Assembly (NCBI RefSeq): GCF_001580915.1
Contig: NZ_LHZQ01000214.1
Span: 1 to 64,000 of the forward strand
DNA: 64,000 nt
Reading direction: 5' to 3'
DNA from: Acetobacter tropicalis
GTDB lineage: Bacteria > Pseudomonadota > Alphaproteobacteria > Acetobacterales > Acetobacteraceae
Positions 50,195-63,091 of the stretch are shown in pieces. Position 1 is the stretch's first letter, and each line of letters starts with the position of its first letter. Made by a program: the position numbers and the translations under genes. The notes below the pieces were generated by a model, which worked only from the letters and a program-made list of their open reading frames with translations, did not search any database and had not been told where the DNA came from.

Positions 50195-51122
50195 CTTGTT
50201 GCATCCCTTCAGTCTTGGAACCCGCAGTGCGGCACAACGGAGACGCAAAAAGGCGTTATCTCACAGGCTGCAACAGGATCGGGTAAATTCAATGTTCATT
50301 TTGGCTCAGATTACAGAAAAACTAAAGCCGCAAACCGCATAACATCTTGTAAAAACGGCTTTTCTTGGAAAAAGAGCCGCTCACTGGAGCACTTTCTTAA
50401 CTTTCCACTCTCCTCAGAAGCCGTTTTCCTGATGGAAGAGAAAGAGAATCGGAGAAACAGCGCTCCTCCTCACATTCACACCATGGCGTGGCGTGGCGTG
50501 GCGTGGCGTGGCGTGGCGTGGCGTGGCGTGGCGTGGCGTGGCGTGAAATATGCTGCCTTCACTATCGTCTTTTCCAAGCTTGGAGGCACTCAGTCACTAC
50601 CTGTTAGAAATCGGACAATAAAAAGCGAGACTGCTTCTCTTTCAATCTGCACATGTGACAAACACTTGGCAAAACGCCTGCTCCCCCATAGCAGCCTCAA
50701 CACCTGCACCTTTTCCCCGCTGAGGGCGCGCCACAAGAACCAGTCTGACCCCATAGCCCGTCCTCAAATCAGGGGGGGAGTGGGCACACCCAACCGGCTT
50801 GAAACAGGCCGCTTATTGCCACGACCTATTCGTGCAAAAGTGGGACTGACCAAACGGCATGTCAAAAAAAAAGTCTGGTCGCAGGGGGAAGCAAAGCCGC
50901 TACGGAACAATCTTCTTCCTCAGGTAAGGGCAATAATACCCTTGAGGGTGGCGCATCAGCCACCAGGAGAAAGTGAGAAGGAGCGGTACGCCGTCCACAC
51001 ATCATGAGGATAGCCAGCCGAAGAGGCGAAACACACTCTAACGCGCTGAAAAAAAGGGGCACGCCACCCGCCCAGAGAGCCGCAAATACAGCCTTACGTT
51101 TCTTATGCTTGAAAAGGAGGAT
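50195..51122. other. Noncoding stretch with tandem repeat before attL
   Basis: The 928 bases contain a pentanucleotide array (50485-50545) and low-complexity runs. A 288-codon frame (50141-51007) overlaps the nuclease start in antisense and looks non-coding. The promoter of the nuclease gene should lie at the left end. Confidence 0.5.
50485..50545. repeat. 12-copy GGCGT pentanucleotide tandem repeat
   Basis: Twelve exact GGCGT units plus one extra G are present, with no interruption. The array sits in noncoding sequence about 290 bases upstream of the nuclease gene start. Such arrays vary in copy number by slippage. Confidence 0.95.
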
Positions 51123-51185
51123 TGGCGGAGGGGAAGGGATTCGAACCCTCGATACAGTTTAACCCGTATAACGGTTTAGCAAACC
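51123..51185 (-). repeat. attL: displaced 3' half of tRNA-Ser
   Basis: This is a 63-base copy of the tRNA-Ser 3' half, from the CCA end to the anticodon arm. The 21 bases at 51165-51185 (beginning CGTATAACGG) are identical to 63042-63062, and the rest differs at several positions in the variable and T arms. It has no 5' half and so cannot be a functional tRNA. It marks the left boundary of the integrated element. Confidence 0.9.
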
Positions 51186-51232: not shown

Positions 51233-51250
51233 CGATGCAATCTCGATGCA
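51233..51250. repeat. Left pair of CGATGCA arm-type repeats
   Basis: CGATGCA occurs at 51233 and 51244, 11 bases apart. The same spacing and nearly the same intervening bases occur at 62892-62909. Such paired sites inside both ends suit the arm-binding domain of a lambda-type integrase. Confidence 0.65.
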
Positions 51251-51263
51251 CTTTGGATACGCT

Positions 51264-52436
51264 ATGAGCATTTACAAGCGAAACGATACCGGGATGTGGT
51301 TCGTTCAGGTCAGAAGGAAGGGGTTCCCTCCCCTTAATCGTTCATTTGCCAAGAAGTCAGATGCGACAATGTGGGAGCGGAATGTGCTGGCTGAGATAGA
51401 CGCCTGTAAAGCAAACCCGCACCGGGTTTTCGATTACACAAAATTTACAACCGTCGAGACTCCCAACTTCGAGGTGTTCGAAGTTGGCATGAACGCGGAA
51501 ATCGTCGAATTCGATGAACGCGGGAACGAAATCAGACGAGAAACAGAAGTCAGAAAAGACAGACCTTATCCTCTGTGGTCATGCGTTGACCGATACATTG
51601 AAGAGGAATTGCACAAATTCAAATCGCATAAATCAATGTTTGACCGACTCAATATGTGGAAAAACTCAGAGTTCGGGCAAGAGTCACTTTATGACATTTT
51701 GCCGGAAATGCTGTTCCGCTGGATGAAAAACAGAAAGAAAAAAGACGGCACCCCTGCTTCGGCATCTACTGTCCGAAACGATCTGTTTCAACTGTCATCA
51801 CTCTATGAAACAGCACGAAAACCTACCACGAAAGGCGGATGGAATATCACTGACCTGAAAAATCCAGTGAAGGATATTCTGTTGCCACCACCGCCAAATG
51901 CCAGACAACGGCGGTTAAACCGGACAGAAGAACATGACCTGTTCTCAGCGTTATCAGATAGCCCGCGCTCACACGAAATCATCCCTTTCGTTATCATTGC
52001 GCTTGCCACCGGCATGAGGAAATCAGAGATTCTGGAAACAACAGTCCGGGAAATTGTGGACGGACAACAAGGATACTCAATCCAGAAACAAGATACGAAA
52101 AACGGACATCCTCGCCTTATTCATCTGTCAGAAAATGCAACAGCTTCTGTTCTTCAGTTAATGCAAGGCAAACGACATGAAGACAGGCTTTTCTCTATGT
52201 CTGAATCGGACGTGTCTAACGAATGGACAAGAGCAAGAGAACGAGCAGGATGCAAAGATTTGCGGTTGCACGACATTCGACATGAAGCCATTTCCAGACT
52301 GGCAGATGTCGGGCTTTCCATTGGTGCCTTGGCGTCTATGTCAGGACATCGCACCGCTCAGACGTTGCTAAAATATGTCAACGCATCCGAAACCGATATA
52401 CGAGAAAAATTGTCTAAAATTTCAAAAAATCAGTAA
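51264..52436 (+). CDS. int: Tyrosine-type site-specific integrase
   Basis: The integrase catalyses recombination between the tRNA att site and the element. The start at 51264 (MSIYKRNDTGMWFVQVRRKG) is preferred to 51246, which would overlap the arm repeats. The 390-residue protein has an arm-binding N-terminus, a core-binding domain (about 120-200) and a catalytic domain with Arg in ATGMRKSEIL, HDIRH, and a C-terminal GHRTAQTLLKYVN containing the His and nucleophilic Tyr. It reads into the element from the left att site and ends at a strong terminator. Confidence 0.93.
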   Translation: MSIYKRNDTGMWFVQVRRKGFPPLNRSFAKKSDATMWERNVLAEIDACKANPHRVFDYTKFTTVETPNFEVFEVGMNAEIVEFDERGNEIRRETEVRKDRPYPLWSCVDRYIEEELHKFKSHKSMFDRLNMWKNSEFGQESLYDILPEMLFRWMKNRKKKDGTPASASTVRNDLFQLSSLYETARKPTTKGGWNITDLKNPVKDILLPPPPNARQRRLNRTEEHDLFSALSDSPRSHEIIPFVIIALATGMRKSEILETTVREIVDGQQGYSIQKQDTKNGHPRLIHLSENATASVLQLMQGKRHEDRLFSMSESDVSNEWTRARERAGCKDLRLHDIRHEAISRLADVGLSIGALASMSGHRTAQTLLKYVNASETDIREKLSKISKNQ

Positions 52437-52440
52437 ACGC

Positions 52441-52472
52441 AAAAAAGCCGGTAAAAATTACCGGCCTTTTTT
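52441..52472 (+). terminator. Rho-independent terminator after the integrase
   Basis: GCCGGTAA (52447-52454) pairs with TTACCGGC (52458-52465), flanked by A6 and a run of T, five bases after the stop. It can act in both directions. Confidence 0.92.
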
Positions 52473-52516
52473 ATTATTCCCATGATATAATGTTAACGAC
52501 CAAGAAAACAACATCA

Positions 52517-52584
52517 AGGAGACTCTGATGTTTTTATAATATCACAAGTCTCCTAAGTCAAGAAGTTCTTTGGCAAAGGAGACT
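52517..52584 (+). promoter_or_regulatory. Leader with alternative hairpins over the rep ribosome site
   Basis: AGGAGACT occurs at 52517-52524 and 52577-52584, and its exact complement AGTCTCCT lies midway at 52547-52554 with 22 bases on each side. The middle copy can pair with only one of the outer copies at a time. The left copy is the ribosome site of a three-codon ORF (ATG TTT TTA TAA, 52528-52539) and the right copy is the ribosome site of the replication gene. This layout is that of a translational attenuator. Confidence 0.65.
52528..52539 (+). CDS. Three-codon leader ORF (Met-Phe-Leu)
   Basis: An ATG follows AAGGAG by 7 bases and reads Met-Phe-Leu-stop. A ribosome here would cover the left arm of the hairpin and free the middle arm to mask the rep start. 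It is inferred from layout; expression is untested. Confidence 0.45.
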   Translation: MFL

Positions 52585-53925
52585 ATGAATTATGATATTT
52601 TAGAGAGTCACATATATAAAATCGACGTTTCAACTTACGACATTTTAGCCACTCTCATACCCTTCTATCGCTACAAGCTTTATCAGAAAATAGCAGAAAA
52701 CAGCCGATTAAACGATGATTGTAACCCTGAGATATGGGCTGATGCTGTCGTCAGAATGTTGCCAAGGCTACGCCGGGAGATTGTGGAATCGTTCGAACTC
52801 GTATCATATTCATACTTAAAATTATTAGAGATTCAACGAATCACAGGAGGCAGATTAACCAGAAAAGCAAACCGAGCACGCACAAATCTCAGGAAAGCCC
52901 TGGGCCTTTTAATTGATGAAGATAAGGTTCAACAGCGTTTTGATAACGACCGCCGGGATCATTATCGCAGATTAAAATTCAACGGTGTCAATGTTCTGGA
53001 TTCCCTCGAACGGAAACAAAAGCAGGCTTACGCACGCGATTGGGCTATATCTCAATGTCTGGACCAATCCGCCCGGCTCCTATGGTTGACGCCCTCGCAA
53101 GGTGATAGCGGTTATTTTATATCACTCACATTACCGCCACGGTTTCATAAAAGCACATTCGAGACTGCAAACAATGAAATCAACCGCAGATTAAACAGCA
53201 TAAAAAAGGATGCTGACCGGCAGGGCATCACATTGCTCGGCATCTATAAGGTTCACGGGCATAAAGATGAAACACAGCACCTTCATATAATTTACTATGT
53301 GAACAATCGAGATAGAGAACGTCTGAATCAGATATTTTTCAAATATTTTCAGAATGAAGAAGAAAGATACGAACAAAATTCGTCGATCAACCAAAGCATA
53401 TGGAACTTCGATGGATGTTTAAGATATCTCTTCAAAGACCACGGGGAACCAAATGTAAGAATTGGATTTATCGGATTAAGACGGGATATTAAAAAGGTCT
53501 GGCACTCGTTATATACAGGGGATTACGGCAATAAATCGCTGTCATATCTGTCAGATGATCGCATATGGATGTTCCGCAAACTTATTCGAAAAACTTCGAC
53601 TGACGATTATGTGAGTCATATTCCCGGTTACACCCTGTTTTGTATTCGTGGTTTTCGTGATTCACGAATTAACCAGCTTGCCGATAAGCAGACAGATATC
53701 AGCCGGACAGATTTTGCAGATGCATACGTGTATCTAATTGGAATGTGGGAATATCTGAACCCTGAAAAATCAGTATTCAAAGTCGAAAAACCACGGAAAA
53801 ACAGGAAGAAAAGAAGTTATGTTTGGGAATATGGTTATATTTATTTATATAGTAACCAAGATAGTAAGAATGCGGTCTTCTTCTGTTGGGAATGCATCAA
53901 AAGCAGAGGCCAACCCCCTCCATGA
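52585..53925 (+). CDS. HUH replication initiator (phage GPA-like)
   Basis: The 446-residue protein resembles bacteriophage replication gene A (GPA) endonucleases. Motif 1 is FISLTLPPRFHK (179-190), the metal site HUH is HLH at 232-234 in DETQHLHIIYY, and the nucleophile motif YxxK is YLFK at 281-284. Such proteins nick the double-strand origin and start rolling-circle replication. The start at 52585 (MNYDIL) has AAGGAG just upstream; a TTG at 52570 is less likely. It lies within an A+T-rich element and is preceded by an attenuator-like leader. A CCCCCTC/GAGGGGG hairpin overlaps its stop. Confidence 0.75.
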   Translation: MNYDILESHIYKIDVSTYDILATLIPFYRYKLYQKIAENSRLNDDCNPEIWADAVVRMLPRLRREIVESFELVSYSYLKLLEIQRITGGRLTRKANRARTNLRKALGLLIDEDKVQQRFDNDRRDHYRRLKFNGVNVLDSLERKQKQAYARDWAISQCLDQSARLLWLTPSQGDSGYFISLTLPPRFHKSTFETANNEINRRLNSIKKDADRQGITLLGIYKVHGHKDETQHLHIIYYVNNRDRERLNQIFFKYFQNEEERYEQNSSINQSIWNFDGCLRYLFKDHGEPNVRIGFIGLRRDIKKVWHSLYTGDYGNKSLSYLSDDRIWMFRKLIRKTSTDDYVSHIPGYTLFCIRGFRDSRINQLADKQTDISRTDFADAYVYLIGMWEYLNPEKSVFKVEKPRKNRKKRSYVWEYGYIYLYSNQDSKNAVFFCWECIKSRGQPPP

Positions 53926-53934
53926 CAGAGGGGG
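53914..53934 (+). terminator. Hairpin overlapping the rep stop codon
   Basis: CCCCCTC (53914-53920) pairs with GAGGGGG (53928-53934) over a 7-base loop that contains the stop codon. There is no T-run. A second hairpin with a GCCGG/CCGGC core lies at 54092-54111. Confidence 0.4.
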
Positions 53935-54153
53935 AAACAGCTTAATCAGTCACATGCAGACACATCATAGCGATAATTTCAGCAGATTGGCACAAAAATA
54001 ATCAAACATATGCGACAGGTGCGGAATCTTATGAAAATCAATGATAATGATTAAGCTGAAAAAATACAATCAAATCAGAATCATAAGGAAACCTGCCGGA
54101 AATCCGGCGGGATATCAGATATAATAATTCCAGTTGTTACAGGAGTTATTACA

Positions 54154-56854: not shown

Positions 56855-56937
56855 TATACCGGTGCCATACCGGTATAACAACGGTATAAATATTGACACG
56901 GAAGGCTCTTTGTGGTATATAATAGAACATATACCGG
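56855..56937 (+). promoter_or_regulatory. TATACCGG operator array around a sigma-70 promoter
   Basis: Half-sites TATACCGG or its complement occur at 56855-56862, in the palindrome ATACCGGTAT at 56867-56876, at 56882-56888 (CGGTATA) and at 56931-56937. They surround a promoter with TTGACA at 56893-56898 and TATAAT at 56918-56923 (19-base spacing; TATATA at 17). A dimeric repressor probably binds here. Confidence 0.65.
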
Positions 56938-62954: not shown

Positions 62955-62999
62955 AACCAAGGCATTCAAGGGCTAAAATAGTCAGGAAAATCAATGAAT

Positions 63000-63091
63000 T
63001 GGCGGAGGGGATGGGATTCGAACCCACGATACGCTGTTAAGCGTATAACGGTTTAGCAAACCGTCGCCTTCAGCCACTCGGCCACCCCTCC
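63000..63091 (-). tRNA. tRNA-Ser(GCU), integration target
   Basis: The 92-base gene (CCA encoded, 63000-63002) begins GGAGGGGTGGCCGAG and has a GCU anticodon in GGTTTGCTAAACC, a long variable arm (TACGC TTAACA GCGTA) and a normal T arm. Acceptor GGAGGGG pairs with CCCCTCC. The 21-base core at 63042-63062 overlaps the anticodon arm and forms attR of the element. The 3' half is element-derived. Confidence 0.96.

Follow-up and report, generated by a model that had tools for sequence, protein, structure and literature searches.

In the account of PMC5703833, the antisense RNAs known as RNAI of plasmids pT181 (87 nt) and pSK41 (approximately 83 nt) act by antisense-induced stems; the pT181 stem ends transcription and the pSK41 stem hides a ribosome site. 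Both pT181 RNAI and pIP501 RNAIII are described there as working alongside a pre-emptor that competes for one arm of the inhibitory stem (PMC5703833). The same source describes the shorter RNAII of pMV158 (48 nt, with its promoter inside the repB start) as lowering rep translation by a proposed direct hindrance, with CopG as second regulator (PMC5703833). A leader-based translational control of rep is also described for S004-repA of SGI1, a mobilizable element that is integrated and replicates in a plasmid-like manner, where a translated leader ORF overlapping repA is required; antisense is not mentioned in the main text of that paper (PMC7826253).

Here we analyze the leader of a rep gene of Acetobacter tropicalis, located in a stretch of 64,000 nucleotides (hereafter the window), and of its relatives. 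We consider it quite probable that this leader switches between RNA folds under the control of a cis-encoded antisense RNA, with rep translation as the regulated step. The closest described system is pSK41, of the staphylococcal RepA_N plasmids, in which an antisense RNA of approximately 83 nt pairs with the rep leader and makes it form a stem-loop that conceals the ribosome site (PMC5703833), as is predicted for the Acetobacter leader. Initiator, host and leader are nevertheless unrelated; the pSK41 target lies approximately 100 nt 5′ of the start (PMC5703833), whereas the whole predicted Acetobacter leader is approximately 87 nt, and the predicted Acetobacter antisense promoter, unlike that of pSK41, is located inside the switching hairpin. 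As the initiator is a Phage_GPA-like protein rather than the RepA_N initiator of a homologous replicon, we describe the working as pSK41-like and do not file the element in the pSK41 replicon family. The likeness to pT181 and pIP501 extends to the antisense RNA and pre-emptor, but these systems stop transcription at a terminator, and the inhibitory stem of the window lacks the T-run of an intrinsic terminator (in relatives with TTTTG after the stem, termination may occur). Like pMV158, the leader would have its rep translation lowered by a short antisense RNA; with SGI1 it shares its setting on an integrated, probably mobilizable element and would share a translational control exerted through the leader. 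The anatomy of the SGI1 leader is closer to that of a sister clade (type B, see below), whereas window-type (type-A) leaders have no such ORF. The kind of switch is thus already known, whereas this version looks unrelated to the staphylococcal ones and is conserved among acetic acid bacteria; a literature search of limited scope found no description of this leader, and as far as we have seen the leader family is undescribed.

The rep Gene and Its Genomic Context

The rep gene (52585–53925, plus strand, 446 codons and a stop) was identified by family profile as encoding a Phage_GPA-like (HUH) replication initiator. All 20 aligned members match the Phage_GPA profile at E ≤ 0.01, with the window protein at 29.7 bits (under the cut-off of 31.4), and 17 of the 20 match the REP_ORF2-G2P profile. 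H232 and H234 of the HxH motif are invariant, and Y281 and K284 are present in at least 90% of the members. Profile and motif together place the protein among the HUH initiators, its nicking and replication activity being predicted only. Searches of the PDB by fold and by sequence with Rep were uninformative: the structure model (pLDDT 74) gave no PDB match at E ≤ 0.001, and the weak matches include some HUH nucleases. The source genome has one copy of rep. The C-terminus of Rep carries a conserved RGQPPP, which is RSQPPP in one of the 13 proteins shown. Several relatives have similar DNA 3′ of rep (window 53900–54000), reading CTTAATCA ... CAGATTGGCACAAAAA, which is possibly an origin or nick site.

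The leader is flanked by a tyrosine integrase gene (51246–52436, longest frame) and rep. Two copies of a 65-base repeat (51121–51185 and 62998–63062), 88% alike and 11,877 bases apart, resemble attachment sites, and the right copy overlaps a tRNA-Ser gene (63000–63091). Between them lie genes matching MobC, a relaxase (just under the cut-off) and a resolvase. The flanking repeats at tRNA-Ser and these genes mark the 11.9-kb stretch as an integrated, probably mobilizable island.

Selection of Related Leaders

Among family genomes, profile and protein searches gave matches in 9 of 200 and in 22 of 397; among genus genomes they did so in 8 of 49 (twice), and for a second genus in 10 of 26. In the genome contig collection 19 loci matched. 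No relative was found in a first single-protein scan of the genome contigs or in a scan of viral contigs. Among plasmids, one truncated rep was detected, of A. ascendens, and a second query gave three weak or partial matches. The phage search returned 13 records, in each of which a replication A protein of a P2-like phage was matched weakly and over part of its length.

After removal of duplicates, 13 distinct type-A leaders were kept: those of the window (L001), A. ascendens (L002), A. persici (L011), A. fallax (L012), A. estunensis (L013), A. malorum (L054), G. thailandicus (L043) and Gluconobacter sp. Dm-62 (L052), and L016, L017, L044, L047 and L051. Acetobacter loci bear leaders identical to those of the A. 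persici and A. fallax contigs. Dropped as duplicates were L048 (of L011), L049 and L073 (L012), L050 (L043), L053 (L013), L070 (L052), L074 (L017), L079 (L016), and L072 and L015 (L054). Reps with a start outside the match, the pieces of a broken rep (L018/L042, leader retained as L047) and weak GPA matches (L007–L009, L032, L033, L035–L040, L045, L075) were dropped as well, and 18 type-B loci, some near-identical and a subset of all type-B loci, were handled separately. The full-length reps compared in an alignment of 8 are 33–56% identical to that of the window. As the 13 leaders are related, counts among them are not independent events.

The rep of L051, on a contig labelled as an Oscillospiraceae MAG, is 58–59% identical to that of the window, and the label is probably a binning error. 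One complete genome has two type-A rep loci (G201:C1:244235-245550; L042, L047), one rep being broken across two frames with its leader intact. Another has a type-B and a type-A rep in divergent orientation approximately 4.5 kb apart (G425:C1:2291988-2299175; L024, L044).

A strict DNA pattern of the leader occurs at 4 places in the 397 family genomes and 7 in the 49 genus genomes (3 in common), every time directly 5′ of a rep gene; a reversed control pattern matched 3 and 0 times, respectively. The strict pattern misses several known leaders, so that the result concerns exact copies, none of which was seen 5′ of any other gene.

Layout of the rep Leader

A rescan of the window confirmed the three exact 8-base arms on which the sequence-only reading was built: AGGAGACT is present at 52517–52524 (left arm) and 52577–52584 (right arm, which holds the rep ribosome site), and its complement AGTCTCCT at 52547–52554 (middle arm), with both gaps 22 bases. 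The coding elements are likewise as described, the left copy being followed by ATG-TTT-TTA-TAA (Met-Phe-Leu-stop, 52528–52539, plus strand) and the right copy by the rep ATG at 52585. When at most 136 bases were allowed between starts, the window contains two triples of an 8-mer, its complement and the same 8-mer, the second of which (at 56855) has unequal gaps of 7 and 52. Dinucleotide-shuffled windows (n = 60) contain 0.25 triples on average and 2 at most, none with equal gaps.

Upstream lies the extended −10 of the rep promoter, TGATATAAT (52483–52491, plus strand), which conforms to TGNTATAMT in 13/13 leaders and from its spacing predicts an mRNA start near 52498. An outer 5′ arm (52500–52506) pairs with 52566–52573 in the predicted open, nascent fold. 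The distance from the loop to the rep start varies from 49 to 61 bases among the 13 leaders. Equal spacing and identity of left and right arms are not general in the relatives; the pairing of the arms is.

Two Predicted Alternative Folds Are Conserved

We folded the nascent transcript up to the ribosome site and, read by eye, found left:middle pairing and an open ribosome site in 13/13 leaders, with energy z-scores of −1.9 to −7.8. An outer stem, whose end lies immediately 5′ of the ribosome site, frequently closes this hairpin. To mimic an antisense RNA, we then kept the transcript single-stranded from its predicted 5′ end to a point just short of the loop. Under this block of the 5′ half, the unpaired probability of the rep GGAG falls below 0.1 in every leader (mean 0.012), compared with a mean of 0.42 for shuffles, 14% of which fall below 0.1 (5/13 in the best shuffled set). 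The mean drop in accessibility upon blocking is 0.43, against a maximum of 0.19 for shuffled sets. These calculations and the comparison of relatives support the proposal that mutually exclusive pairings open or hide the rep ribosome site, and also its direction, in which occupation of the left arm leads to masking of rep, both in 13/13 leaders.

At equilibrium and unblocked, the accessibility of the ribosome site averages 0.44 and is uneven among leaders, being lowest in L001 and L013 (0.00), L002 (0.13) and L016 (0.16); for L001 and L013 approximately 40–46% of single shuffles give an equally large drop. The closed form of the window leader is favored by 3.7 kcal/mol, and its open state would therefore have to depend on the order of folding, i.e., be kinetic.

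Pairing between arms was also assessed by exchanging arms between leaders. Left:middle duplexes of own arms are more stable than those of swapped arms (−16.9 vs. −11.3 kcal/mol; p = 0.00005), and own arms outperform the median of the others in 12/13 leaders. For middle:right duplexes the values are −9.9 vs. −8.3 kcal/mol (p = 0.0012) and 11/13 leaders, and when collapsed to 6 right-arm classes the permutation p has a median of 0.008 (range 0.003–0.069), the kinship of the sequences being still included in all these permutations. Just 5 consecutive middle:right pairs are present in 5/13 leaders. Changes in the ribosome site are tracked by the middle arm, as in AGTCTCCT/AGGAGACT, ATACTCCT/AGGAGTAT and TAACTCC/GGAGTTA. 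RNAalifold found no consensus pairs on a plain MAFFT alignment. The arms are out of register in that alignment, and for this reason we relied on the swap and shuffle tests. We regard the alternative-fold switch itself as very likely correct.

A Predicted Antisense RNA

The sequence-only reading closed with the guess that an antisense RNA might set the switch, for which sequence comparison and calculation now provide support in the form of a predicted RNA; the promoter element and terminator on the minus strand, its likely trigger, were absent from that reading. In the window, the minus strand carries an extended −10, TGATATTAT (52544–52536), overlapping TATAAA (52538–52533), together spanning 52533–52544, and a −35-like TTGACT (52556–52561) is located 17 bases from TATAAA. 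The predicted RNA starts at about 52526–52529 and extends over 52441–52528 (minus strand; about 90 nt, or approximately 93 by script) to an intrinsic terminator at 52441–52465 (stem 52447–52465, minus-strand T-run 52446–52441). The extended −10 (TGNTATTAT or TGNTAATAT) lies in the loop between left and middle arms in 13/13 leaders, compared with 2.3% of shuffles and 1/13 for the plus strand of the same leaders. A TTGA-type −35 hexamer is present in 6/13 leaders and absent from 7/13. A minus-direction terminator 5′ of the rep promoter is likewise found in 13/13 leaders vs. 8.8% of shuffles, and the predicted RNAs are 83–100 nt long. Plus-direction terminators occur there in 3/13, so that in the other leaders the terminator does not look built for the upstream gene; that of the window, which carries a T-run on the plus strand as well, may additionally terminate integrase transcripts. 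The antisense promoter is missing from the list of a promoter scan of the window because TATAAA fails the rule of that scan. Rfam gave no match for the leader at the gathering score, the only signal near it being a sub-threshold STnc390 (52410–52478, 21.9 bits vs. 50).

The antisense RNA might instead act directly, covering the rep ribosome site in trans through a loop complementary to the 8 bases common to left and right arms. We consider this unlikely. The arms of the window and L052 indeed have a 9-base word in common (AAGGAGACT in the window), but the longest common word is 3–7 bases in the remaining 11 leaders and just 3–5 in seven (L002, L011, L012, L013, L016, L051 and L054), yet the switch fold is retained in all 13.

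Proposed Control of rep Translation

Established here are the arms, the two folds as computed, the conservation of these features, and promoter and terminator signals on the minus strand. From these we infer that cells transcribe an antisense RNA which pairs with the leader to repress rep, and that the element replicates once excised. The 5′ half of a nascent rep mRNA would fold into one long hairpin (outer arm and left:middle stem) that stops just short of the ribosome site, leaving rep open to translation. From a promoter in the loop and middle arm of this same hairpin, an antisense RNA of approximately 90 nt would read back across the left arm, its predicted target, and halt at the terminator 5′ of the rep promoter. 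Once on the left half of the leader, it would free the middle arm, which would then pair with the rep ribosome site and switch translation off. More copies would make more antisense RNA, and rep synthesis per copy would fall. In this way the copy number of the excised form would be controlled, and rep would stay low for as long as the element is integrated.

If correct, acetic acid bacteria would have a predicted copy-number switch of compact design on an integrated element. This would imply that the antisense-switch logic of staphylococci either evolved in Alphaproteobacteria or spread there, in both cases with an unrelated initiator, and that two controls of rep translation, an antisense switch and leader-ORF coupling, precede related rep genes. 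A wider reading, which we put forward tentatively, is that the leader follows the pSK41/pT181 logic in Gram-negative bacteria without being related to those systems, and is carried on integrated mobilizable elements. A single stretch of approximately 60 bases would combine three roles, those of antisense promoter, pre-emptor hairpin and anti-ribosome-site arm. Chromosomal rep would be held low by the antisense RNA, with a burst of rep becoming possible on entry into a cell without that RNA, and the sister clade would have swapped the switch for leader-ORF coupling.

HUH-type initiators commonly have their nick sites in hairpin loops. This counts for a very improbable alternative, in which the hairpin with its TATAATANCA loop functions as DNA, namely as the double-strand origin at which the HUH-like Rep nicks, and the RNA switch arises as a side effect. 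The match of Rep to the Phage_GPA family and the good conservation of the TATAATANCA loop fit such a DNA element, but it leaves unexplained why 13/13 leaders have a minus-strand terminator and why the middle arm pairs with the ribosome site. The sister clade, moreover, has other leaders without this hairpin, and the conserved DNA 3′ of rep in several relatives is another stretch.

Less probable still is a pT181-like attenuation, with the middle:right stem ending transcription before rep. The logic of the arms would be the same, and leaders with AGGAGTATTTTG have a few T after the stem; in the window, however, ATGAATTATG comes after the stem and contains no T-run, and the terminator scan lists none for the plus strand at this place. 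An antisense-controlled switch acting on translation remains the preferred reading.

The Three-Codon ORF and the Leaders of the Sister Clade

The sequence-only reading had a ribosome on the three-codon ORF as sensor, freeing the middle arm to mask rep; this is the least credible of the alternatives, for although the anatomy of the window fits and short frames of the MFL, MFI or MIT type are readable in some relatives, 4/13 leaders lack ATG, GTG or TTG at the ORF site, just 3/13 combine an ATG with a suitably spaced word resembling a ribosome site, and GGAG is absent from 5/13 left arms. Its suggestion of amino-acid-sensitive attenuation fares no better, the ORF having three codons and being unconserved rather than a conserved leader peptide with codons for a sensed residue. 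In view of the missing start codons and GGAG, we reject leader-ORF or amino-acid attenuation as the general mechanism. The sensor is most likely the antisense RNA, not a ribosome on the short ORF, which is probably incidental; its stop codon TAA overlaps a conserved TATAATA stretch that is the −10 region read on the minus strand.

The stop of the window ORF ends 45 bases 5′ of the rep ATG, unlike the ORFs overlapping or abutting the rep start in the leader-peptide coupling of SGI1 and R1. Such coupling may belong to the sister clade and not to the type-A clade. In 17/18 type-B loci (from Asaia, Gluconobacter, A. lambici and others) a leader ORF of approximately 27–46 codons has its stop 11–19 bases past the rep start, and in the remaining locus the stop lies one base before it. 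These 18 type-B loci are L005, L010, L024, L027, L028, L034, L041 and L055–L065, and TGNTATAMT is present upstream in 17/18.
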